Shown in pieces: positions 49,811 through 62,956 of a stretch of 64,000 nt of DNA (positions are counted from its first letter, which is position 1; each line of letters opens with the position of its first letter). A program made the position numbers and the translations under genes. This DNA comes from Candidatus Baltobacteraceae bacterium (GTDB lineage: Bacteria; Vulcanimicrobiota; Vulcanimicrobiia; Vulcanimicrobiales; Vulcanimicrobiaceae). The stretch is from contig DASXGW010000001.1 of the NCBI GenBank assembly GCA_036488875.1, positions 372,001 through 436,000 of the forward strand. Reading direction: 5' to 3'. A model generated the notes under the pieces. That model made no database searches. It was not told where the DNA came from and worked only from the letters and a program-made list of their open reading frames with translations.

Positions 49811-52800
49811 ATGGGGCGTGGCGCCTGGAAGAACGGTTGGACTTCCAATGCGACGCTGACGATTCTGCTGTCAATCGTCGGCGCCGTAACAATTGCCGCG
49901 ATGGTGACGGTCTACGTGCCGCACGCAACGTACGGCATGCAATTAGCCTGGCGCAACAACGGGTTCGGCGAACGAAATCTGGCGGTGACGTCGGTCCAGC
50001 GCGGCTCCGCGGCGGCGCGCGCGGGCTTGCAGCCCGGTGACGAGATTTTCGCCTTCGCCTCTCCCGCGGATCGCCTCGCCCTGGCGCTGCAGTCAAACCT
50101 AGGTACCGGCTGGTACCTCGCCGTCGGGCAACCCGCGTCGTTCTCAGTCGAGAACGCGTCGGGGCAGCGTCAGGTTGAGCTGCGCGCCGCGGCCGTCGAC
50201 ACGCATCGGCCGAAATGGTTCATGGAGGTCCGGCTGATCACGTACCTCTTGAGCGTGATCGTCGCCGGTCTGCTCGTGCTCTTTCGCCCCAGCGTCATCA
50301 CCTGGGGCTTTGCATTGTTCGTGATCCTCGCGGAGCAGCCGAACATTTTGCCGCTCGAGTTTTTCGGCCAACGCGGGTCGCCGCTGCTCTTTGCAGCAGC
50401 GCTGTTCGGGTTCGTCCCGTGCGTCGTTGCCGCGGGATTTCTCGGTTTGATTGCTTTTGCGGCGCGGTTCCCGAGCAATCGTCCGCAACCGGGCTTCGCC
50501 GTAATCGAGCGCGCCGCGTGGGCGTACATGGGCGCCGTCGTGCTGGCGTTCGTCGAACACTACGTCGCGGAATGTTACGGCTGGCCGTCGTTGTCGTTCG
50601 CGGCGCTGGTGAACTGGCTCTACTACGTGCCGGCGCTGCTCGCGATCGCCCTGCTGCTCCGCACGCTGCTACGATCGCGCGGCGACGCGCGCCACCGGCT
50701 CGTTTGGGCGATCGCAGGACCGTCGTTGGGCAGCCTGTTCACGGTGGCCAACGTGATCCTCGTCGCGATGCACGTGCCGTACGCCTACGCGGCCGCGTTT
50801 GGATTCTTATCGTCGCTCTCACCGCTTGCGATGGTGTACGCGATCGTTCGGCATCGCGTCATCGAGCTCGGCGAAGGCCTCGACGAACGGTTCGCGCATG
50901 CGATTCCGCACTCGGCGCCGTCGCAGCGCAAGCCGGGCCGGCGCGAACTGGTTCGGCGCGTCGCGCTCCTGTTTTCCGCCAAGGTGCCGCTGCACGGCGT
51001 CTATGCGCAACTCGCCGGCTTGCTCGCGCACTTCGTCGACGCCAGCAGCGTGCTGATCGCGGTCGGCAATAAAGACACCGCGCGCTTAGACTACAACTAC
51101 GAAGACGGCTCGGGTGCGCGGCCCGATAACGTCATCGTGCCGCCCGACAGCATCGTGGCGCAGGTGCTGCGAACGGGTCAGCCGGTGCTCTTTTGCCGCG
51201 AAGAAGATTGGCCCAGCAGCAAGCTGGTAAGCGTCGGCGGGCGCGAGACGCAAAATTCGGTTTCGGGCATCTTCGTGCCGGTTACTTTCGGCGGAACGAT
51301 CATCGGCGCGCTCAGCGTGCAATCTTTGACGCCGGACGCCTACGATCAAGACGACGTCTCGATGATGGAGACCTGCGCGCTCTATTTGAGCGCGCGTATG
51401 TACGACGAGGAACGCGCCGCGCACCGCCGCACGGGGCTCGTCGATCGCATCGCGTTCGATCGGGCGATCGCCGAACAATGGAAGCTCTCGGGGCGCACGG
51501 AGAAACCGCTGAGCGTCGTGCTGATCGACGTCGATTTGTTTGCTTCGTTCAACGACGCCTACGGCCACGTTGCCGGCGACACGTGTCTGCGGCAAATCGG
51601 CGGTATCGTCGAAGCGAGTGCAAAACACGAAGGCGACCTTGCCGCGCGATACGGGGAAGAAGAGTTCGCGGTGCTGCTTCCCGGCTGCGACGCCCCCGAC
51701 GCGATCGAGATCGCCGAGCAGATCCGCACGGCAGTGCGGGCGCTGGAAATCGAACACCAAGGATCGACGTTGGGAGCGGCCAGCGTGAGTGCCGGTGTCG
51801 CCACGTACGTTCCCGATGCGGCGCATCCGCCCGAGATCGTTATGGCCGCGGCAAACGCGCAGCTGCAGCGCGCCAAGGGCGAAGGACGCAATCGCGTCGC
51901 GGCCGACGGCTATGGCTCGAAGGCGCAAGAAGCGCGACGCCGCTCGACGGCGGAGCATCACGTCGCCCACGACGCAGGCTCGTTTGTTGGACGGCGATCG
52001 GATCTGGCGCGGTTAGAGCAACTGCTCGCAGAGAGCGCCGTGGTAACGGTGTTGGGGCAAGAGGGCGCGGGCAAGACGCGCACCGCACTTGCGCTCGTGC
52101 AGCGGTGCGGAGCCCGGTATCCCGACGGCGTGCGATTCGTCGATCTGCGCGCCGTCACGACGGCCGACGCCGTAGCCGGTACCGTTGCGTCGACGCTTTT
52201 TCCCGGACTCGAGCTCGAAGGCGCCGATGCCGCGCAGCTCGCCGAGCTGTTGCGCGGAAAAGAGCTGCTGCTGGTGCTCGATAACTCGACGCTCGTCGCC
52301 GATGCTTGCGCGTCGCTGACGAAGAGTCTGATCGCGCGCGCGCCGGGCACGCGCGTGTTGTGCACGACGAGCCGCCCGCTGCGGCTGGCCGAGGAGAAGA
52401 CCTACGAAATCGGCGAGCTCAGCGCTGACGAAGCGCGCGAACTGTTCGCCGACCGCGCGGGAGATAAGATAGACGGTGCATTCGAGCGCGCCGGCGGCAT
52501 GCCGCTCGTCGTGGAGCTCGCGGCGGCCGCGCCCGAACGACTGCCGGAGGCGCCCGAGGACGTGCAAGCGATGGTCGAGTGGAGCTGCGACCGTCTTTCC
52601 GCGCCGTATAAAGCAGTCGCGTATCGCCTCGGCATCTTCCCCGGCGATTTTGGCGAGGCGGCGGCCGCGTCGGTGTGTGCGGGCGGCGACGTCTCGAGCG
52701 ACGATGCCGGCGCGGCACTCGACGCGCTGGTCCGTCGGGCATTGGCAATTTGCACCGAACGCGACGGCGAGCGACGCTACTCGCTGCCGCCGGCGGTGCG

Positions 52801-53977
52801 TCAGCACGCGCGCGCGGCGTTGGCGGCGTCGGGCGAGATGCCCGCGGTCAAGAAGCGCTTCGTGGAGTATTTCGGCGCGTTCGCCGGACGTGCAACGTCG
52901 CGCAAGACGGAGCTTCCCTACGAAGCGTGGCTGCGCGCGCAACGCCGTGAGTTCGACAACTATCGCGCCGCGCTGCGCTTGGCGATCGACGAGGTGGACG
53001 ATCCCACGGCCGCCTCGTACGTATTACGGTCGCTCGCGGGATTGATTCTCGATCTCTCGCCCGGCAGCGAGTTCGCCAACGAGCTGCGGCGCGTAGTGCG
53101 TCCCGGCGATCTGCCGGCGACGGTCGAAGCCGGATTGCAGATGGCCTTGTCGGAGCTGCGGCGTTTCCGCGCGCCGGCCGAATCGCTGCGCTCGGCGCGT
53201 CGGGCGCTCGAATTGTACGCGAGCTCGGGTGACGAACTCGGCGCCGCATACGCACTGTGGCTGTCGGCGGCGGCGCAACTGCGCGAGCGCGGCGGCATCG
53301 ACGCCGCTTTCGAGCGCGCGCTGATCGACGGCGTGCAGGCCGCGAAACGCGCGCGCGATTGGCATCTTGCGGTCGGGCTGATGCGCAACCTGGCGTACGT
53401 GCAGTCCGATGCCGGACGCCACGAAGAGGCGCGCAAAACGTTGCGCGAAGCCGCGCTGGTGGCCGATCCCACCGACGTCGTGATGCTCGCCGCACTCTAC
53501 GGCAACACGGCGCTGGAAGAGTTTCGCGACGGCAAGATCGATACGGCGATCGCGATGTGGCGCCAGGCGGCCGCGCTGGTCGAAGTGGTGCGCCCGGCGT
53601 ACGCTGCGCTTTGTTTTGTGAACGCGGGCTTGGGCGAGCTCAAACGCGGCGACTTGATGGCCGCGCGCATCGCGCTGCGCAAAGGTTTAGCGACGTTGCG
53701 CGCTACGGGTCATGCGTTCGGCATCGCGCTGAGTTTCGATCACTTCGCGCGCCTGGCGAAGGCGGGCGCGTCATACGAGCGCGCGGCTCGTCTGGCCGGT
53801 TTCGCGCAAGCGTCGTTCGAACGCGGCGTCTCGCGGCCGGTCACGGAACAAGGCTTGTTCTACGAATTGACCGACGAACTGCGCCGGGAACTGGGTAATG
53901 CCGCGTACGAGCGGGAATGGAATCGCGGCCAGTGGATGACCTTAGACGAGGCAGTTTCGGAAGCGCACGCGGTGTAG
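49811..53977 (+). CDS. Giant signalling fusion: PDZ, membrane helices, GAF, GGDEF-like, STAND ATPase, TPR
   Basis: The single 1388-residue frame runs as follows. TM1 (15-37) is followed by a PDZ-like segment (VTSVQRGSAAARAGLQPGDEI, 55-110) and about seven TM helices (140-350). A GAF domain lies at about 395-540. A diguanylate-cyclase fold (545-705) has VVLIDVDLFASFNDAYGHVAGD and the signature at 615-619 as GEEEF, lacking the second Gly. A STAND NTPase has P-loop GQEGAGKTR (about 749-757) and LLLVLDNS as Walker B. TPR-like helices run to the C-terminus. No DNA-binding domain is seen. It probably senses envelope signals and couples a nucleotide-second-messenger module to an ATPase scaffold. Confidence 0.85.
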   Translation: MGRGAWKNGWTSNATLTILLSIVGAVTIAAMVTVYVPHATYGMQLAWRNNGFGERNLAVTSVQRGSAAARAGLQPGDEIFAFASPADRLALALQSNLGTGWYLAVGQPASFSVENASGQRQVELRAAAVDTHRPKWFMEVRLITYLLSVIVAGLLVLFRPSVITWGFALFVILAEQPNILPLEFFGQRGSPLLFAAALFGFVPCVVAAGFLGLIAFAARFPSNRPQPGFAVIERAAWAYMGAVVLAFVEHYVAECYGWPSLSFAALVNWLYYVPALLAIALLLRTLLRSRGDARHRLVWAIAGPSLGSLFTVANVILVAMHVPYAYAAAFGFLSSLSPLAMVYAIVRHRVIELGEGLDERFAHAIPHSAPSQRKPGRRELVRRVALLFSAKVPLHGVYAQLAGLLAHFVDASSVLIAVGNKDTARLDYNYEDGSGARPDNVIVPPDSIVAQVLRTGQPVLFCREEDWPSSKLVSVGGRETQNSVSGIFVPVTFGGTIIGALSVQSLTPDAYDQDDVSMMETCALYLSARMYDEERAAHRRTGLVDRIAFDRAIAEQWKLSGRTEKPLSVVLIDVDLFASFNDAYGHVAGDTCLRQIGGIVEASAKHEGDLAARYGEEEFAVLLPGCDAPDAIEIAEQIRTAVRALEIEHQGSTLGAASVSAGVATYVPDAAHPPEIVMAAANAQLQRAKGEGRNRVAADGYGSKAQEARRRSTAEHHVAHDAGSFVGRRSDLARLEQLLAESAVVTVLGQEGAGKTRTALALVQRCGARYPDGVRFVDLRAVTTADAVAGTVASTLFPGLELEGADAAQLAELLRGKELLLVLDNSTLVADACASLTKSLIARAPGTRVLCTTSRPLRLAEEKTYEIGELSADEARELFADRAGDKIDGAFERAGGMPLVVELAAAAPERLPEAPEDVQAMVEWSCDRLSAPYKAVAYRLGIFPGDFGEAAAASVCAGGDVSSDDAGAALDALVRRALAICTERDGERRYSLPPAVRQHARAALAASGEMPAVKKRFVEYFGAFAGRATSRKTELPYEAWLRAQRREFDNYRAALRLAIDEVDDPTAASYVLRSLAGLILDLSPGSEFANELRRVVRPGDLPATVEAGLQMALSELRRFRAPAESLRSARRALELYASSGDELGAAYALWLSAAAQLRERGGIDAAFERALIDGVQAAKRARDWHLAVGLMRNLAYVQSDAGRHEEARKTLREAALVADPTDVVMLAALYGNTALEEFRDGKIDTAIAMWRQAAALVEVVRPAYAALCFVNAGLGELKRGDLMAARIALRKGLATLRATGHAFGIALSFDHFARLAKAGASYERAARLAGFAQASFERGVSRPVTEQGLFYELTDELRRELGNAAYEREWNRGQWMTLDEAVSEAHAV

Positions 53978-53991
53978 CCGCGGATGCGTGG

Positions 53992-54657
53992 ATGCTCTTT
54001 CTCGACGAACTCGACGGCCGCGCACTGCGCGAACGATGTCTACCGTGGCTCGCTTCCGACGAAGTAGCGCGGTATCGCGCCCTGTCGACCGATCGATTGC
54101 AATTGCGCTATCTTGCGAGCATCGCGCTGTGCCGCCGGTCGCTGTCGCAGTATGCGCCGGTCGATCCGCCGGCATGGCGGTTCAGGCGAAGTGTGTCCGG
54201 CAAACCGGCGATCGCAGCGCCGCTGCAACGCCCGTCGCTACGGTTTAGTCTGTCGAGAACCGACGGACTTGCGGTCTGTCTCGTTACATCGGCGGGGGCG
54301 GCAGGTGTGGATGTGGAGAGCACGTCGCGAACCGTCGACACGGCCGCCGTCGCGCGAGACTTCCTTTCCGCAGCGCAACGTCAGCAACTCGAGACGTTGC
54401 CGCCGGTCGAACAAACGCGAAGCCTCTTTAAGCTTTGGGTGCTGCACGAGGCGTATGTGAAAGGCACGGGGAGAGGGCTAGGCGCAACGCCCGAGCGGGT
54501 ACGCGTCGGGTTCGGCGCCGGCGGCGCTCCGCTGCCGATGGGAAACTGGCGGCTGTTCTTTTACGAGCCCAGCGCAACGCACGTCGCAGCGGCGGCCATA
54601 CGGCCGCGCGACGGCGCCGACGTTACCGTTACCTGGCTACGAGCGAGCTTATTCTAA
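53992..54657 (+). CDS. Sfp-type 4'-phosphopantetheinyl transferase
   Basis: The 221-residue enzyme transfers phosphopantetheine from CoA to a carrier-protein Ser. Motifs are VSGKPAI, LRFSLSRTDGLAVCLVT, GVDVES (Mg-binding Asp) and FKLWVLHEAYVKGTGRGL. In the last, the usual KEAY is HEAY; the Glu and following Lys are kept. ATG 53992 is used; the frame is open upstream inside the previous gene, so translation may be coupled. It is the natural activator of the A-PCP protein encoded at 58061-59842. It is convergent, overlapping by nine bases, with the first acyltransferase gene. Confidence 0.88.
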   Translation: MLFLDELDGRALRERCLPWLASDEVARYRALSTDRLQLRYLASIALCRRSLSQYAPVDPPAWRFRRSVSGKPAIAAPLQRPSLRFSLSRTDGLAVCLVTSAGAAGVDVESTSRTVDTAAVARDFLSAAQRQQLETLPPVEQTRSLFKLWVLHEAYVKGTGRGLGATPERVRVGFGAGGAPLPMGNWRLFFYEPSATHVAAAAIRPRDGADVTVTWLRASLF

Positions 54658-55782
54658 ACTCGCGTCGCCGTCAAAGACCGACGGGTCCCAAGCGGACTCA
54701 CGCTTTAGCTCGGTCGCGAGGCGCTCGTCGCCCGCGCGATAGAAGAACGGCCAGTTGTCCAGCGTTCGGACGTAAGGCGCGCATCGGTCTAAGCCGCACA
54801 TCTTAGGAACGTCTCGCCCGGGATTCTCGAAGACGCCGACATCGTCGCGCGCGCTCATCTCAAGCGCGGCGTGAAGCAGATCGGGTAAGAGATCGACGTC
54901 CTCGCCGAGGGTTTGGTAATCGACCAGACGCATTGCTCGCAGCGGCGAGCGCGGTTGGCGTTTGCAAATGCAGTACGCGAGCATGCGACCGTTACGAGAA
55001 GCGGTCAAGATCCACAGTCGCCCGTCGCGAAGCGGGCGTGAGAAGTGCCACGACAGCGTCGCGGCGTCGCGCACTGCCAATAACGTTTCCGGCCGGCGGC
55101 GGCAAAGTTCGCCCCAAAATGCGTCGAACCGCGCGTCGAAACCGTCGAGCGCTTCGACCGTAACGTTAGCATTGCGGGTAGGAAGCGGTTTTCGACTGAG
55201 GGCATCGGTTAGGCGCAACGCCGCTCCGGCGGGGATGGCGAGCGCGCCGGCAAACGGGAGCTTCCGCCGCACCAGTGCCTGCTTTGCGACGACGCGATGC
55301 GCGGCAATCCAGTACGAAACCTTGTTCCATTGACCGACGGGAATGCGGCCGGCACAGTGTTCGAGTAGTCCAAACGCCAACGGCCCGGCGGTGGTGCTGA
55401 TGCAGACGTCGGCCGACGCCTGGTTGAAGTATTCGTCTAAGAGCAATAACGCGAGTCCGCGATACGGTGGGGCGACGACCCATCCGCGGCTGTTGGCAGC
55501 GATCAGACGCTCTCCGCGAAACGCGTACGATGACGGCACGTTCGAAAAGGAGCCGACGATCTCGCCGCCGCCGGCTTCGAGCACCCATCCGATCGGCCAA
55601 CCGTTGCCAAGCCGCTCCCACAACGGGTTGTGTATCCAAAGATCGCGCCAGTCGTCGAGCGACACGACCGCAAACGAATAAGCCTCGCCCAAGCGCATGA
55701 TGCCTTCGTAGTCCGAAAACCGCGCTTCACGAAGCTGCGGAGCAGCCGGAGGCGCCGCGCTACTCGAAGCTGACGTCTCCAT
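54649..55782 (-). CDS. GNAT-like acyltransferase, paralogue A
   Basis: ATG 55782 has AGGA four bases upstream. The 377-residue protein starts with a GNAT-style domain (LREARFSDYEGIMRLGEAYSF, IGWVLEAGGGEIVGSFSNVP, GWVVAPPYRGLALLLLDEYF). It ends in a second half carrying LAYCICKRQ and VDYQTLGEDVDLLPDLLHAAL and a C-terminal NWPFFYRAGDERL. The layout matches the next gene throughout, so the two are tandem paralogues. Two-domain GNAT proteins of this size move acyl or aminoacyl groups to amines. It overlaps paralogue B by 23 bp. Confidence 0.7.
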   Translation of the reverse strand: METSASSSAAPPAAPQLREARFSDYEGIMRLGEAYSFAVVSLDDWRDLWIHNPLWERLGNGWPIGWVLEAGGGEIVGSFSNVPSSYAFRGERLIAANSRGWVVAPPYRGLALLLLDEYFNQASADVCISTTAGPLAFGLLEHCAGRIPVGQWNKVSYWIAAHRVVAKQALVRRKLPFAGALAIPAGAALRLTDALSRKPLPTRNANVTVEALDGFDARFDAFWGELCRRRPETLLAVRDAATLSWHFSRPLRDGRLWILTASRNGRMLAYCICKRQPRSPLRAMRLVDYQTLGEDVDLLPDLLHAALEMSARDDVGVFENPGRDVPKMCGLDRCAPYVRTLDNWPFFYRAGDERLATELKRESAWDPSVFDGDASLE

Positions 55783-56818
55783 CGTATCCTGAGGGATCCC
55801 AGCGCTCCGGCCGGCGCAGCTCGCCGTCGAGCGCCGCATCGGCCGCACGGTAATAGAACTTCCAGTTCTCCAACTCTTCGCAATGCGGAGCGCATTCGTC
55901 GACGACGCGCATCTTCGGTACGCCGCGCCCGAGCATCTCGAGAATATCGAGATCCTCGCTTCGGCAACGCTCGAGCGCGGCGCGAAGGAAATCGGGCAAG
56001 AAGTCGATCTCCGGTTCGATGCTCTGATAGTCGACGAGGCGCATGCCGGGAAGCTGCGTATCGCCGTAAGGCAACGCCGGTAGCCGAAAGGCGTGATCTT
56101 GACGGGTCAACGTGCAATACGCGCGAAGATTGCCGCCGCGCGACGCCGTAAACGTCCAAAGACGTCCCTTGCGCATCGGAGCGGCGAAATGCCAACTCAA
56201 AACGTCGGCGCTGCGATCGGCCAAAAGCACGTCGGGGTTTTGCCGGCGAAGCTCTTTCCAGAACGTATCGAACCGCGAATCGAAGCGATCGACGGCTTCA
56301 ATCGTCGGAGAACTCGTGCTGCGCGGGAGCTCTTTGGCAAGCGTTGGGTGTCGCGTTACCCAATACGAGATTCTGTCCCAACGTCCCAGCGGAACGGGAC
56401 TGCAAAACTGCGCAAACGCGTCGTGGGCGGGGGCGCTGACGGCATTGTTGAGCACGAGGTCGACGCCTGGCTGATTGAGGTATGCGTCCATGAGCTCGAG
56501 CGCCATCGGCCGATACGACGGGTAAACGAACCACGCGCGGGCTACGGCCGCAGTCAGATCTTGGCCGCGAAACGTGTACGGCGCGTGCACGGTGCCCATG
56601 CATCCGACCATCTCGCCGCGCTCGGTTTCCAACACCCACCCGATCGGATAATCTTTTCCCCGTCGAGTCCGCACCGGATTGTCGCGCCACAAACCGCTCC
56701 AATCTTCGAACACGGGAACGTCGAGTCCATGGGCGCGCGCCAACCCCGCAATGCGCTCGTAGTCGCGCAACGCGGCCGGGCGCAAGCGCGTCGGTGCCAT
56801 CGATTCGGCGACCTTCAC
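55760..56818 (-). CDS. GNAT-like acyltransferase, paralogue B
   Basis: GTG 56818 overlaps the P450 stop as GTGA, fixing the start despite a longer open frame. The 352-residue product shows the same blocks as paralogue A (LRPAALRDYERIAGLARAHG, IGWVLETERGEMVGCMGTVH, AWFVYPSYRPMALELMDAYL, VDYQSIEPEIDFLPDFLRAAL, NWKFYYRAADAAL, and a DGDVSFE end matching DGDASLE). There is no signal peptide. By position it acts on the product of the A-PCP/P450 pair. I cannot assign donor or acceptor from sequence alone. Confidence 0.7.
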   Translation of the reverse strand: MKVAESMAPTRLRPAALRDYERIAGLARAHGLDVPVFEDWSGLWRDNPVRTRRGKDYPIGWVLETERGEMVGCMGTVHAPYTFRGQDLTAAVARAWFVYPSYRPMALELMDAYLNQPGVDLVLNNAVSAPAHDAFAQFCSPVPLGRWDRISYWVTRHPTLAKELPRSTSSPTIEAVDRFDSRFDTFWKELRRQNPDVLLADRSADVLSWHFAAPMRKGRLWTFTASRGGNLRAYCTLTRQDHAFRLPALPYGDTQLPGMRLVDYQSIEPEIDFLPDFLRAALERCRSEDLDILEMLGRGVPKMRVVDECAPHCEELENWKFYYRAADAALDGELRRPERWDPSGYDGDVSFE

Positions 56819-58060: not shown

Positions 58061-59842
58061 CTAGGCGTACGTCCCGGTTTTCAAGCGCGTCACTTCGGTG
58101 GACAACGCCGCGACGGTCGGCGCGGTAAAGACCTGGCGAAGCGTGAGCTTTACACCGAACGCGTCGTGGATTCGCGCCACAAGTTGCACGGCAAGCATGG
58201 AGTGGCCGCCGATCAAGAAGAAGTTGGCTTGCGGGTCGATGGACGATTGCTCCAGCAGGGATCCGACCATGGTTGCGATATCCCGCTGCACGCCTTCGTC
58301 GGGCGGCGCCGCCGTCGCAGAATCGCCCGAATCGTTCGGCAGGCGATTCGCTTCGCACGGAAGCGGAAGCCCGGATCGATCGAGCTTGCCGTTTGCGGTT
58401 TGCGGGAGTGACGGCAGCGATACGAACGATGAGGGAATCATATACTCGGGCAGCTTGGCTGTAAGTGCCGTACGCAAACCGGTCGCCGTGAGACGCGCTC
58501 CATCGGCGGCGACGACGTAAGCGACGAGCGCCGGATCGGCCGGCGACGCGGTGCGTGCGACGACCGCGCTGCACGCCACGCCGGTACATTCGTTGAGGCG
58601 CGCCACGATTTCGCCCGGCTCTACGCGATGTCCGCGAATCTGCACTTGGTCGTCGAGGCGCCCGAGAAACTCGATTTCGCCGTTTTCGAGCAGTCGCGCG
58701 CGGTCGCCGGTGCGATAGATGCGCTGCAACGATCCGCCGGCGCCGGTATATTCTACAAACGCCTTTGCGGTGGCGTCGGGCAGATGCCGATACCCACGGG
58801 TGACGAGCGCGCCGGCCAAACACAACTCCCCGGCGTGACCCGACGGCACGGCGTTGAGTTCTTCGTCGAGAATCAGCGCCGTTGCGTTGGTAATCGGACG
58901 CCCGATCGAGGGGCGTTCGTTCGTGTCTTCGGGGGACACGACGCCGGACGTCGCGACGACCGTACACTCCGTCGGCCCGTAGTTGTTGACCAGAGCGAAA
59001 GGCAGCTCGCGATTGGGCCGGCGGCGCAGTACGTCTCCACCGGTCAGTAGGTAGCGCAGACGCGTGTTTTCCGGCCACGACATGGCGATCATCGGTTCCG
59101 CGAGGATCGTCGGAACGAAACCGATCGTAATGCGTTGCTCGACAAGCCACTGCTGCAGTTGATCGGCCGATCGCCGTACCTCTTCGCCCGCGACGACGAT
59201 CGCTGCTCCGGCCGCAAGATATGGCCAGATCTCCCACACGGCGGCATCGAAGCCAAGGCCGGCGACCAAGCTGGCACAGTCAGCCGAGGTGACGTCAAAC
59301 GCTCGCCGATGCCAATCGATCAAGTTGGCGAGGTTTGCGTGGGTGACTTCCACGCCTTTGGGTTGCCCCGACGAGCCGGACGTATAAATAATGTAGGCGA
59401 CGCTTTCCGGGTCGGGTTGCGCAACCGTGAAGCGCGAAGTGTCAAGCGCAGGCAGGTCGTCGACGTCCACCGTCAGCCACGAGCCCTGCGGTAAACGATC
59501 CATTCGGTTCGGCTGCGTGACCAGCGCGGTCGCGCCCGCGTTTTCGAGAATGAATGCCGCTCGATCGACCGGCGTCGAAGGGTCGAGCGGCACGTAAGCC
59601 GCGCCGGCTTTTACGATGCCCAGCGCAGCGACCACGAAGCGAGCGGATCGCTCGACGAGCACGCCGGCGCAGCGCCCCGGACCCACCCCCGCTTCGCGCA
59701 GGCGCATCGCAAGCCGGGTCGATTTTTCGTCGAGCCCGGCATACGTCAAGCGCTCGCACGCATCGGCTACCGCGACGCTCTCGGCCGCAGAGTCGTCCCG
59801 TCTCGAACGGATGATGTCCACGATCTCATAGTAGGTCTGCAA
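58061..59842 (-). CDS. Stand-alone NRPS adenylation-PCP didomain (predicted leucine-activating)
   Basis: The 593-residue protein has an A domain with YIIYTSGSSGQPKGVEVTH (A3), NNYGPTE (A5), YRTGDRARL (A7), GRLDDQVQIRGHRVEPGEI (A8) and NGKLDR (A10). A carrier domain follows with FFLIGGHSML; the Ser takes phosphopantetheine. There is no condensation or thioesterase domain. Aligning by eye with GrsA PheA gives the ten specificity residues DAWFLGNVVK, which I recall as the Leu(1) signature. It starts with TTG 59842 after GAGG. Downstream in the operon are the P450 and two GNAT genes. Confidence 0.92.
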   Translation of the reverse strand: MQTYYEIVDIIRSRRDDSAAESVAVADACERLTYAGLDEKSTRLAMRLREAGVGPGRCAGVLVERSARFVVAALGIVKAGAAYVPLDPSTPVDRAAFILENAGATALVTQPNRMDRLPQGSWLTVDVDDLPALDTSRFTVAQPDPESVAYIIYTSGSSGQPKGVEVTHANLANLIDWHRRAFDVTSADCASLVAGLGFDAAVWEIWPYLAAGAAIVVAGEEVRRSADQLQQWLVEQRITIGFVPTILAEPMIAMSWPENTRLRYLLTGGDVLRRRPNRELPFALVNNYGPTECTVVATSGVVSPEDTNERPSIGRPITNATALILDEELNAVPSGHAGELCLAGALVTRGYRHLPDATAKAFVEYTGAGGSLQRIYRTGDRARLLENGEIEFLGRLDDQVQIRGHRVEPGEIVARLNECTGVACSAVVARTASPADPALVAYVVAADGARLTATGLRTALTAKLPEYMIPSSFVSLPSLPQTANGKLDRSGLPLPCEANRLPNDSGDSATAAPPDEGVQRDIATMVGSLLEQSSIDPQANFFLIGGHSMLAVQLVARIHDAFGVKLTLRQVFTAPTVAALSTEVTRLKTGTYA

Positions 59843-59876: not shown

Positions 59877-61169
59877 TCAAGTTCCTAAGGGTAACCGGAG
59901 TAGGTTTCCAACGAGGTTCCGGTACGGTATCACGTCGTTTCTGGTCGCCAGGAAGAGCCGGCTCGGAGCGATTCCGGTTCGACGGACAAAATACGCAGCA
60001 GCGAGCGCGAGCGATATCACGTACGATATCGACGTCGCGATCGCACCGCCGGCGATGCCGAAGATCGGCAGCATCGCCACCGTCGCCACGGCGCAAATCA
60101 CGAGTGAGACCACCCGAAAGGCGAGCACGAGCCGCGGCTCACCGACTTGCTGCAAGAAGAAGGACGTGAGCGCACCGATCGTGCTGTAGGCCACGACTCC
60201 CGGCAAGAGCAGCCACGTTACCAGCACCGCCCCCTCGAAGGCTCGTCCGTAGAGAAGCGGGACGAGGAACGGGGCGGCGACGGCAATGCATCCCGCGCCG
60301 GCGATCGATAATGCGAAGCAGTGGCGCATGCACGTCGCCGTCGCCTGTGCGGCCTGCGCTTCGCTTCCGCGCGCAATGCGCCCGAAGCATGCGGTATTGA
60401 TGGCGCGGCTGATCTCCCACAGGAGTTCCCCGATCGCGATCCCGATCGAATAGATGCCAAGCTGGGCATTTCCGAGCATCGCCATGATAATGAATACGTC
60501 GATCTTGAAGTTGAGAAAGGCGGCCGCGTTCGTCAGGCTGCTTTGAAACGCGTACCGGAGCTGTTCGAGCAGCAACGGTCCGCGATCCTCACCGGTCGTC
60601 CCCGACGAGTACCGGCCCAAGCGCAGCAGCGAGTAGCACGAGGCCGCTACGAAGCCTGCAACCCAGATCGCAAGCAGCACTCCTAGCGGCGCCCGATCGA
60701 AAACGAGTAAGGGAATGTAGAGCAGCACCGCGCCGACTCCCGGAAACAGTTGCGCCACGACAACGGTTCGAACGTCTCCGTCGGCGAGGAAAAAGCCGGT
60801 CGACGTTTGCGCAAAGAGCGCAAACGGCACGGCCGCAGCGACCCAGAACAGAACGCCTTGCCCCGGTACGAACCACGCGATTGCGGCCAGGACCGCAATG
60901 GCGGCAAGACACGTGCCGGCCCAGATCGCGAGCATCGCGCGCGTAACGGCCGCCGGCGAGCGATGGCGTTTGGTGTATTGCCACGCTACCGCCGCACTTT
61001 GACCGTTCATCACGAGCACGAGCATCAACGCCGCGTTCGCATAGGTAAAAAGTCCCTTACCGGACGCTCCTAACGTGCGCGCGATGACGATCGAACCGAC
61101 CACGGCAACCGCTCGGATAGCGGTTCTGGTTATAAAAGTCTCGAGACTTCGTTTTCCGACGTCGCTCAC
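59877..61169 (-). CDS. Oligosaccharide flippase (Wzx/MATE-like)
   Basis: GTG 61169 gives about 430 residues starting SDVGKRSLETFITRTAIRAV; the longer frame to 61211 adds a non-hydrophobic extension. About 12-14 hydrophobic segments occur, with ARTLGASGKGLFTYANAALM near the N-terminus and ISRAINTACFGRIARG in the centre, the typical pattern of Wzx/RfbX polysaccharide exporters of the MOP superfamily. It moves undecaprenyl-linked glycans across the membrane. It lies 34 bp before the A-PCP gene on the same strand and is divergent from the GINT-like gene. Confidence 0.85.
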   Translation of the reverse strand: MSDVGKRSLETFITRTAIRAVAVVGSIVIARTLGASGKGLFTYANAALMLVLVMNGQSAAVAWQYTKRHRSPAAVTRAMLAIWAGTCLAAIAVLAAIAWFVPGQGVLFWVAAAVPFALFAQTSTGFFLADGDVRTVVVAQLFPGVGAVLLYIPLLVFDRAPLGVLLAIWVAGFVAASCYSLLRLGRYSSGTTGEDRGPLLLEQLRYAFQSSLTNAAAFLNFKIDVFIIMAMLGNAQLGIYSIGIAIGELLWEISRAINTACFGRIARGSEAQAAQATATCMRHCFALSIAGAGCIAVAAPFLVPLLYGRAFEGAVLVTWLLLPGVVAYSTIGALTSFFLQQVGEPRLVLAFRVVSLVICAVATVAMLPIFGIAGGAIATSISYVISLALAAAYFVRRTGIAPSRLFLATRNDVIPYRNLVGNLLRLPLGT

Positions 61170-61291
61170 GGTAGGGTTTAGCTGTACCCTATAACGATGA
61201 CCGGGACGCAACTGCCATTGGTCCCGCCCCCTAAGGTCCTAGTCGCGCTTCCACATCAGCCCGGCGTTTCCGAAGGGTCATCGGTGCCATT

Positions 61292-62956
61292 ATGGCGGTG
61301 ATTATGCTGCAGTACGGTGTCGTTGCCGGCGGCCGGCTCAAAGCGTGGGAGCTCGAGTGCGTCCGCAACATCGAAATGCGCCGTTTGGCGCGCTTGCGCT
61401 GCGCGATTGCCTGCGCAGCGCCCGCGCCGCCGGCGGCGGCTCCTTACGAACGATTGTGCGCCGCGACCGTCGCGTCGTCCCAACGCGTCGTCGCGCCCGA
61501 CGAACTGGCGCGGCGGAGCGATGAATTTATTACCTTGGACTCCGACGATTCGGGCGCAGAGTGGCAGCGGCATCTGCGCGATCTCGCACTCGATTTCATT
61601 TTGGTTTTCGGCGACGTCGAACTCGGCGACGCCGCACAAAGCGCTCGCTACGGCGTGTGGCGCTTCGTTTACGGCGATCCCGCGCGTTTTCGCGCGGCCG
61701 TGCCGGGGTTTTGGGAGATGTACGCGGGCCACGACGTCACGTCGGCGGCTCTCGTCAGGACGAGCGCCGGCGCGGAGACCGTGCTGAAGTGCGGGCATCT
61801 CGGCACGGTGAAGGCTTCGTTCTCGCGTAACGTAGACGCCATTTGCAAGGCGATGGCGGCGTGGCCGTCGATGGTCTGCGCGAACGGAGTCGAGGATACG
61901 GCGGCGGAGGCCGCCGGTTCGGCGGCGGTGCAGCCGCGCGTCCGGTACGGTTGGCCTACCGCGCTCGAAACGGCGCTGCTTAGTTCGAGCGAGGCCGGCG
62001 CGCGAACGTTCGAGTACCTCCGCAGCCGGCTTTTTTCCGTCGACTGGAATGTGGGGATCGTGCGGGAATCGCCGAGCGATTTCATCGGACGTAACGCGCG
62101 ACCGAAACCGCGATACCTCTTTCCCGCCAAAACGCACACGTATCTTGCGGACCCGTGCGTGGTACGTTTAGGCGCGCGTACGATGCTATTTTGCGAGCAG
62201 TTCGATCACCGGCACAACCGCGGCATCTTGGTGTCGAGCGAATTCGCGTGCAATCGCGCGGCGGAACCCACCGTCGCGATCGAAGAGCCGCACCACTTGT
62301 CGTATCCTCACGTGTTCGAGCTGAATGGGGCGTTGTATTGCATCCCGGAGTCGGGTCACGCGAACAAAATCTGTCTCTACCGCGCGAACGAATCGGTCGA
62401 CCGATGGCATTACGTGCGCACGCTGGTCGACAACTTCGCGGGAGTCGACAGCACCGTCGTGCGGCACGACGGAAAATGGTGGCTATTCTGCACGAGCGCA
62501 GAAGCGGTAGAGCGCGGCTTCAACTCACACCTCTACGTGTGGTACTCCGACGACCTTTTTGGAACGTGGAAGCCGCACGCACTCAATCCCGTAAAGATCG
62601 ACGCTCGCTCCGCACGTTGCGCTGGCGCGTTCTTCACGCACGAGGGTGCTCTCTACCGCCCAGTCCAGGATTGCGCCGCGTCGTACGGAGCCATGATCCA
62701 CATCGAGCGCATCGAGAAGTTGACGGAGCGGGAGTTCGAGGAAACGACCGTCGGAACGATACGACCGCCGGGAGGCCGGTATCGCAGCGGAATTCATACC
62801 ATTTCCGCCGCGGGAGACGTTTGCGTCGTCGATGCAAAGCGCTACGTGTTCAGTCCGTGGCGCATCGGTTTTGCGCTGCGCCGCCTAGGACGCCGAACCG
62901 CCCGCGCCGTCACCGGAATAGCCCTGTCGGGCGAGGAGTTCGGTCCGCTGCGGTAG
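61292..62956 (+). CDS. GINT1-like glycan enzyme with N-terminal formyltransferase-like domain
   Basis: Of 554 residues, the first 200 resemble formyltransferase-like N-domains (GGRLKAWELECVRNIE, ARYGVWRFVYGDPARF, PGFWEMYAGHDVTSAALV). The rest is a five-bladed-propeller-like domain as in the glucosamine inositol-phosphorylceramide transferase N-region and GH43-like folds: YLADPCVVRLGARTMLFCEQF, YPHVFELNGALYCIPESG, TVVRHDGKWWLFCTSAEA, YVWYSDDLFGTWKPH. This pair is seen in polysaccharide gene clusters. ATG 61292 is used, without a strong ribosome site. The chemistry is unknown; it probably modifies or makes the glycan moved by the flippase. Confidence 0.65.
   Translation: MAVIMLQYGVVAGGRLKAWELECVRNIEMRRLARLRCAIACAAPAPPAAAPYERLCAATVASSQRVVAPDELARRSDEFITLDSDDSGAEWQRHLRDLALDFILVFGDVELGDAAQSARYGVWRFVYGDPARFRAAVPGFWEMYAGHDVTSAALVRTSAGAETVLKCGHLGTVKASFSRNVDAICKAMAAWPSMVCANGVEDTAAEAAGSAAVQPRVRYGWPTALETALLSSSEAGARTFEYLRSRLFSVDWNVGIVRESPSDFIGRNARPKPRYLFPAKTHTYLADPCVVRLGARTMLFCEQFDHRHNRGILVSSEFACNRAAEPTVAIEEPHHLSYPHVFELNGALYCIPESGHANKICLYRANESVDRWHYVRTLVDNFAGVDSTVVRHDGKWWLFCTSAEAVERGFNSHLYVWYSDDLFGTWKPHALNPVKIDARSARCAGAFFTHEGALYRPVQDCAASYGAMIHIERIEKLTEREFEETTVGTIRPPGGRYRSGIHTISAAGDVCVVDAKRYVFSPWRIGFALRRLGRRTARAVTGIALSGEEFGPLR

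Follow-up and report, generated by a model that had tools for sequence, protein, structure and literature searches.

A leucine-coded free-standing A-PCP protein paired with a cytochrome P450 and followed by tandem-GNAT acyltransferases in a Vulcanimicrobiota genome

Introduction

Free-standing A-PCP proteins that work with a P450 to provide beta-hydroxy amino acids are known from the NovH/NovI and OxyD systems, which handle aromatic residues and belong to actinomycete clusters. The biotin-biosynthesis P450 (3ejb) acts on carrier-bound acyl chains. GNATs normally use acyl-CoA thioesters, and LuxI and HlyC are GNAT-like enzymes with carrier-protein donors. For leucine, the ten-residue pocket code DAWFLGNVVK heads the most frequent codes that the available portion of PMC12283262 lists for Leu, Ile and Val domains, and Leu domains have the most conserved code profiles according to the same source. 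In the available portion of PMC7524897, four predicted Leu-activating domains of the scytocyclamide cluster carry this code, one of them possibly with a gap, and 3-OH-Leu is found in the compounds that this cluster makes. No description of a Leu A-PCP/P450, GNAT or glycan cassette was recognised in the literature covered by our search, outside which most subscription papers fell, and the cassette is unmentioned in the accessible part of a Ktedonobacteria paper (PMC6497799).

The window analysed here is the whole stretch of 64,000 nucleotides from contig DASXGW010000001.1 of a Candidatus Baltobacteraceae bacterium. It contains an A-PCP gene, a P450 gene and two acyltransferase genes in one direction, and their coordinates and those of their neighbours are given in Table 1. 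We propose, at roughly even chances, that the cassette serves as a leucine-specific station for loading and oxidation whose product goes to an acyltransferase, and not to a peptide assembly line.

Table 1. Coordinates of the cassette and neighbouring features in the window
Feature	Position	Strand	Basis and remarks
Sfp/HetI-like PPTase, convergent on cassette	53917..54657	+	Pfam PF01648, 40.5 bits
Tandem-GNAT acyltransferase 2	54649..55782	-	Likely ATG at 55782; paralogue, same family profile
Tandem-GNAT acyltransferase 1	55760..56800	-	Likely ATG at 56800; AlphaFold2, VIA-align
Cytochrome P450	56815..58053	-	Pfam PF00067; starts 7 bp after A-PCP stop
Free-standing A-PCP protein, whole	58061..59842	-	593 aa, TTG start
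Peptidyl carrier domain, residues 522-582	58097..58279	-	Pfam PF00550, 56.1 bits
Adenylation domain, residues 20-486	58385..59785	-	Pfam PF00501 + PF13193, pocket mapping
MOP-superfamily flippase-like membrane protein	59877..61211	-	34 bp upstream of A-PCP, same direction
GINT1_N glycosyltransferase-like gene, divergent	61292..62956	+	Pfam PF24793, 136 bits

Results

The A-PCP protein and its pocket code

Pfam placed AMP-binding (249.5 bits), AMP-binding_C and PP-binding in the A-PCP protein, each above its cut-off, and found no C or TE domain in it. The TIGR01733 model scored the protein at 389.4 bits against a cut-off of 317.4, and in a PDB sequence search the top match was linear gramicidin synthase LgrA, with GrsA (1amu) also matched. 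The core motifs, which we take to be those labelled A3, A5, A7, A8 and A10, were all located in the A domain. The lysine equivalent to PheA K517 is residue 486, and the PCP serine is residue 548 in GGHSM (DNA 58199-58201). Assignment as a DltA D-alanine ligase was rejected, the score being 234.4 bits against a curated cut-off of 559.85.

The original prediction had read a leucine code in this protein by hand alignment. MAFFT alignment onto GrsA PheA (1amu) reproduced exactly the ten pocket residues D-A-W-F-L-G-N-V-V-K, presumably the code known as Leu(1), and all of the motif segments quoted for the pocket were found in the sequence. As a guard against misalignment of the pocket, the PheA reference used for this mapping was checked: it was identical to the 1amu PDB chain over residues 272-527, and each of its ten pocket letters sat at the residue number expected for it. 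The same ten letters occur as a Leu code in the available portions of PMC12283262 and PMC7524897, and this exact match to a published Leu-domain code supports leucine as the predicted substrate. The code thus argues strongly that the A domain would adenylate L-leucine and load it onto the PCP, and loading of leucine on the carrier is the well-supported part of our proposal.

The P450 partner and conservation of the pocket

Related loci were found by a P450 alignment scan of genome contigs, and the best 80 of 106 confirmed loci were compared; since the search started from the P450, it missed A-PCP-only loci. L021 and L084 come from the same contig and have an identical P450, and L112 is the same as L025. 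In 72 of the 80 loci the P450 was immediately preceded by an A-PCP, adjacency here meaning a same-strand A-PCP match ending no more than 600 bp before the P450. The other eight comprised two loci without an A-PCP match (L076 and L092) and six with the best A-PCP match elsewhere (L027, L039, L050, L082, L083 and L090). Furthermore, four P450 proteins chosen for their long frames were fusions, to C-A-T-TE by Pfam in L026:7884-13376 and L070:7908-13328, and to A-T-TE with no Pfam condensation domain in L030:7977-11966 and L049:7980-11801. The P450 is therefore dedicated to the A-PCP either by adjacency or, in the four long-frame proteins scanned, by fusion. Its top PDB sequence match was 3ejb, the biotin-biosynthesis enzyme. 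Because of the close pairing with the A-PCP and the gene fusions, the P450 may act on leucyl-S-PCP and would probably oxidise the PCP-bound leucine to a hydroxyleucine. As the stand-alone A-PCP is paired with a P450, the unit finally transferred is probably an oxidised leucine.

The pocket was much better conserved among relatives than its surroundings. The eight pocket columns after D235 matched the window at a mean of 97% in 73 related rows, i.e., those with nine pocket positions readable, a few of which do not adjoin a P450; the same rows matched at 48% over the A domain and at 58% over PheA 236-331. Random 8-column sets from PheA 236-331 equalled the pocket in 5 of 20000 draws, a figure that disregards the kinship of the rows, and the high conservation of the pocket is not due to chance. 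Since the pocket columns are conserved so far above their surroundings (97% versus 58%), the leucine preference itself, beyond the fold, seems to be kept in the relatives. DAWFLGNVVK was present in 58 of the 68 P450-adjacent A-PCPs with a readable pocket, the pocket being incomplete in the other four of the 72. The remaining codes were DAWFLGNVLK (five), DALFLGNVLK (two), and DGWFLGNVVK, DAWFLGNVAK and DAWYLGNVVK (one each). In addition, among the matches listed for 40 related genomes, A-PCPs with more than 40% identity were found in G036 (56%) and G017 (45%). These carry the codes DAWFLGNVVK and DAWYLGNVVK, respectively, and a P450 adjoins the A-PCP in both.

Taxonomic spread

The A-PCP/P450 pair was found in records of nine phyla, namely Acidobacteriota, Chloroflexota, Verrucomicrobiota, Rokuibacteriota, Pseudomonadota (Sphingomonas, Rhodospirillales), Planctomycetota, Actinomycetota, Dormiibacterota and Vulcanimicrobiota. 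By title, 71 of the 80 loci are metagenome-assembled, and the other nine include Sphingomonas, Dictyobacter, Acidicapsa, KBS 96 and F-183. Within the phylum of the window, the P450 profile matched 5 of 149 genomes at E 1e-90, one of these matches (G137, the fifth) being weak, and gave no match in the congener G001 in the same scan; the cassette is therefore sporadic in the phylum. The GNAT profile matched 4 of the 149 genomes at 1e-10, with a weak match in G008.

Exit enzymes after the P450

With G036 and G017 added, 82 loci were available for comparison of the gene that follows the P450. A condensation-domain match stood right after the P450 in 51 of them, and a GNAT gene occupied that place, as in the window, in eight, the two classes being defined by tblastn matches within 700 bp and 400 bp after the P450, respectively. 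The other 23 loci, L027 among them, had neither or came from stretches that end too soon: several break off shortly after the P450, and in some a TE match or a more distant C match is present. In the eight GNAT-type loci, the sequence available between 3.5 kb upstream and 6 kb downstream of the P450 contained no condensation match; in four of them it runs on for less than 2.2 kb. Four downstream proteins scanned with Pfam (L098, L059, L046 and L072) had the architecture C-A-T-TE. The second-module codes vary and include DILQLGMIWK, DAFWLGGTFK and DVWHVSLIDK, the first of which is given for Gly in the available portion of PMC12283262. The leucine half is constant, and the second half is exchanged among loci.

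A lone C domain was found in L027:6122-7597, before the P450, and in L093:3370-4800, and a GNAT gene lies farther off in both. The stand-alone condensation domain of these two loci is a third exit type. In L059 (6219-7939 and 13297-14478), C-A-T-TE and a GNAT gene occur together, and the A-PCP reads as two open frames. Because the GNAT gene coexists with C-A-T-TE in L059 and with a lone C domain in L027 and L093, the GNAT is not a strict substitute.

The P450 tree was built without L081 and L082 because of stops in their translated matches. The GNAT-type arrangement, which occurs in eight loci and the window across three phyla, was clustered on it; three changes are required to account for its nine rows, with 22 rows unlabelled, and the arrangement may have one origin. 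The window grouped with G036, L025 (Eremiobacterota), L024 (Isosphaeraceae) and L074 (Bryobacterales). In another GNAT-type locus, ATP-grasp and carbamoyltransferase genes (L089:2202-5273) lie upstream of the cassette.

The condensation match in 51 of the 82 loci and the sporadic occurrence in the phylum would suit a cassette that has lost its second NRPS module (C-A-T-TE) and whose present product is free hydroxyleucine or nothing of use, with the GNATs as unrelated neighbours. However, the motifs of both the A domain and the PCP are intact, as is the code, and the genes lie 7 and 14 bp apart or overlap. The recurrence and clustering of the GNAT-type arrangement also speak against such a remnant, which we regard as improbable.

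Tandem-GNAT acyltransferases

The gene for acyltransferase 1 starts 14 bp after the P450 stop, and that for acyltransferase 2, whose product is 47% identical to acyltransferase 1, overlaps it by 23 bp. Pfam gave nothing above cut-off for the two proteins, with Acetyltransf_6/9 below threshold, and a fold model was needed for their assignment because the sequence matches were sub-threshold. In the AlphaFold2 model (12 sequences; pLDDT 86.7, pTM 0.86), two GNAT lobes cover the full chain of acyltransferase 1. The top VIA-align match was the tandem GNAT MAB_4324 (7q3a), with a Z of 20.3 and an rmsd of 3.5 for 290 residues, and it spans residues 1-320. Foldseek matched the model to N-myristoyltransferase and Eis, and several structure entry titles among the fold matches name a CoA ligand. 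In G066, a second GNAT gene lies with a Bac_transf sugar transferase gene on a 4.7 kb contig (L111), where no A-PCP or P450 match was found.

The GNATs might also act in the reverse sense, transferring an acyl group from acyl-CoA to the amine of the PCP-bound (oxidised) leucine. The resulting N-acyl amino acid would be freed by hydrolysis or by an unlinked enzyme and exported by the flippase-like protein. This reading is consistent with the best fold matches, which are CoA-dependent N-acyltransferases (N-myristoyltransferase, Eis and MAB_4324), and with the retention of C-A-T-TE alongside the GNAT gene in L059. However, release of the N-acyl product is left unexplained because the eight window proteins scanned include neither a thioesterase nor a condensation domain, and the genome gave no condensation match. 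We consider the reverse role rather unlikely. In our proposal, by contrast, the GNATs would receive the aminoacyl-PCP as donor, as the gene context suggests. A transfer role is suggested by their fold and by their position, which in many relatives is taken by a condensation-domain gene.

The rest of the genome and the flanking genes

No match to the Condensation model PF00668 was found in the genome of the window (3.7 Mb, 97.6% complete); as a control, the same search matched in 4 of 14 genomes. MbtH had no match in the genome either. A full NRPS elongation system was rejected, with no condensation domain in the A-PCP protein or the genome. A module elsewhere acting in trans would make the cassette the first half of a dispersed NRPS, and the order in relatives fits this, since the A-PCP/P450 precedes a condensation-domain protein in the 51 loci and C-A-T-TE is found in four separate proteins scanned. 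The absence of a PF00668 match from a genome of this completeness nevertheless makes a dispersed NRPS highly improbable.

The genome has a second A-domain protein with a carrier domain (L002; G000:C15:40290-41648), in a 1247-aa frame and with the code DQDEIGAVCK. Two PPTase matches were found in the genome, one of them the local PPTase, which the HetI model matches below its cut-off. The gene beside the cassette at 49811-53977 (plus strand) encodes a 1388-aa protein in which Pfam found PDZ, GAF and GGDEF domains, with AAA matched below threshold.

Glycan context

The flippase-like protein matched PF01943 (Polysacc_synt) with an E of 0.0019, at 18.1 bits against a cut-off of 28.2, and a PDB sequence search returned four matches at E 0.38-0.73 and nothing useful. 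The Foldseek top match of its low-confidence model (pLDDT 53), built from a divergent alignment, was WzxE, and MATE exporters and MurJ match as well. The first ~280 residues of the divergent GINT1_N gene product have no Pfam family, and the membership of this gene in the system is uncertain. These two genes are the only glycan context in the window itself.

In five of the eight GNAT-type loci (L024, L038, L057, L073 and L074), a GT4-cluster gene lies directly before the A-PCP. Pfam confirmed a glycosyltransferase in L024, and a Wzy_C protein is additionally encoded in L073. Counted glycan-cluster genes were present in 17 of the 50 condensation-type loci and 8 of the 23 other loci (L021 left out), a count that includes c22 and clusters c4, c6 and c33, unconfirmed by Pfam for the representatives tried. 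None was found in the GNAT-type loci L020, L025 and L089 within the stretch examined or in the other 33 condensation-type loci. A larger glycan locus beyond the window was sought, and no glycosyltransferase was found in nine further ORFs, to ~13.5 kb past the window end, out of 17 (the 921-aa ORF L113:16390-19155 was among those left out). Because three GNAT-type loci, 33 of the 50 condensation-type loci and these nine ORFs are devoid of such genes, the glycan link of the GNAT-type cassette is suggestive only.

Discussion

In the proposed loading and oxidation station, the local Sfp/HetI-like PPTase would arm the PCP, and the A domain, judged by its code, would adenylate L-leucine and load it. 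The P450 would then oxidise leucyl-S-PCP, most likely to hydroxyleucine, and the tandem GNATs would transfer the aminoacyl group from the thioester to an amine acceptor. The acceptor could be an amino sugar within a lipid-linked surface glycan exported by the flippase-like protein, a speculative choice guessed from the context. In its full form, the scheme is a carrier-dependent aminoacylation of surface glycans, in which leucine on the A-PCP would be oxidised by the P450 and passed by the GNAT to a lipid-linked sugar before flipping, with a portable starter leading to C-A-T-TE, C or GNAT exits. We put this full form forward tentatively, as possible but doubtful.

A leucine call by itself is routine. 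The significance lies in one pocket being kept in a P450-paired free-standing A-PCP across nine phyla while the exit enzyme varies. The Leu-A-PCP/P450 pair would be a portable starter with exchangeable exits, and the GNAT exit of the window is the unusual part. If the GNAT accepts an aminoacyl-carrier, oxidised amino acids could be placed onto other molecules without a condensation domain or a tRNA. Given the leucine code, the first step lends itself to a direct test.

Several known systems share parts of this arrangement. The Leu modules of scytocyclamide/laxaphycin have the same ten-residue pocket, and 3-OH-Leu occurs in the products of their cluster, as far as the available portion of PMC7524897 goes, but they are modules of large NRPSs, whereas the A-PCP of the window stands free and lacks C and TE. 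The two-lobed fold of the window GNAT is common to MAB_4324 (7q3a) and the N-myristoyltransferases (Z of 18.4-20.3) and, by Foldseek, to Eis. However, its identity to MAB_4324 and N-myristoyltransferase is about 8-12% in the VIA rows, and, unlike all three, it adjoins an A-PCP. DltA/DltC also consist of an A domain and a carrier that activate an amino acid for the cell surface, as proposed here, but the window operon has a leucine code, a P450 and a GNAT, and its A-PCP scores below the DltA cut-off. As in the NovH/NovI and OxyD systems, a separate A-PCP in the window would load one amino acid for a dedicated P450; compared with them, the window pair is leucine-coded, occurs in nine phyla and continues into a GNAT.
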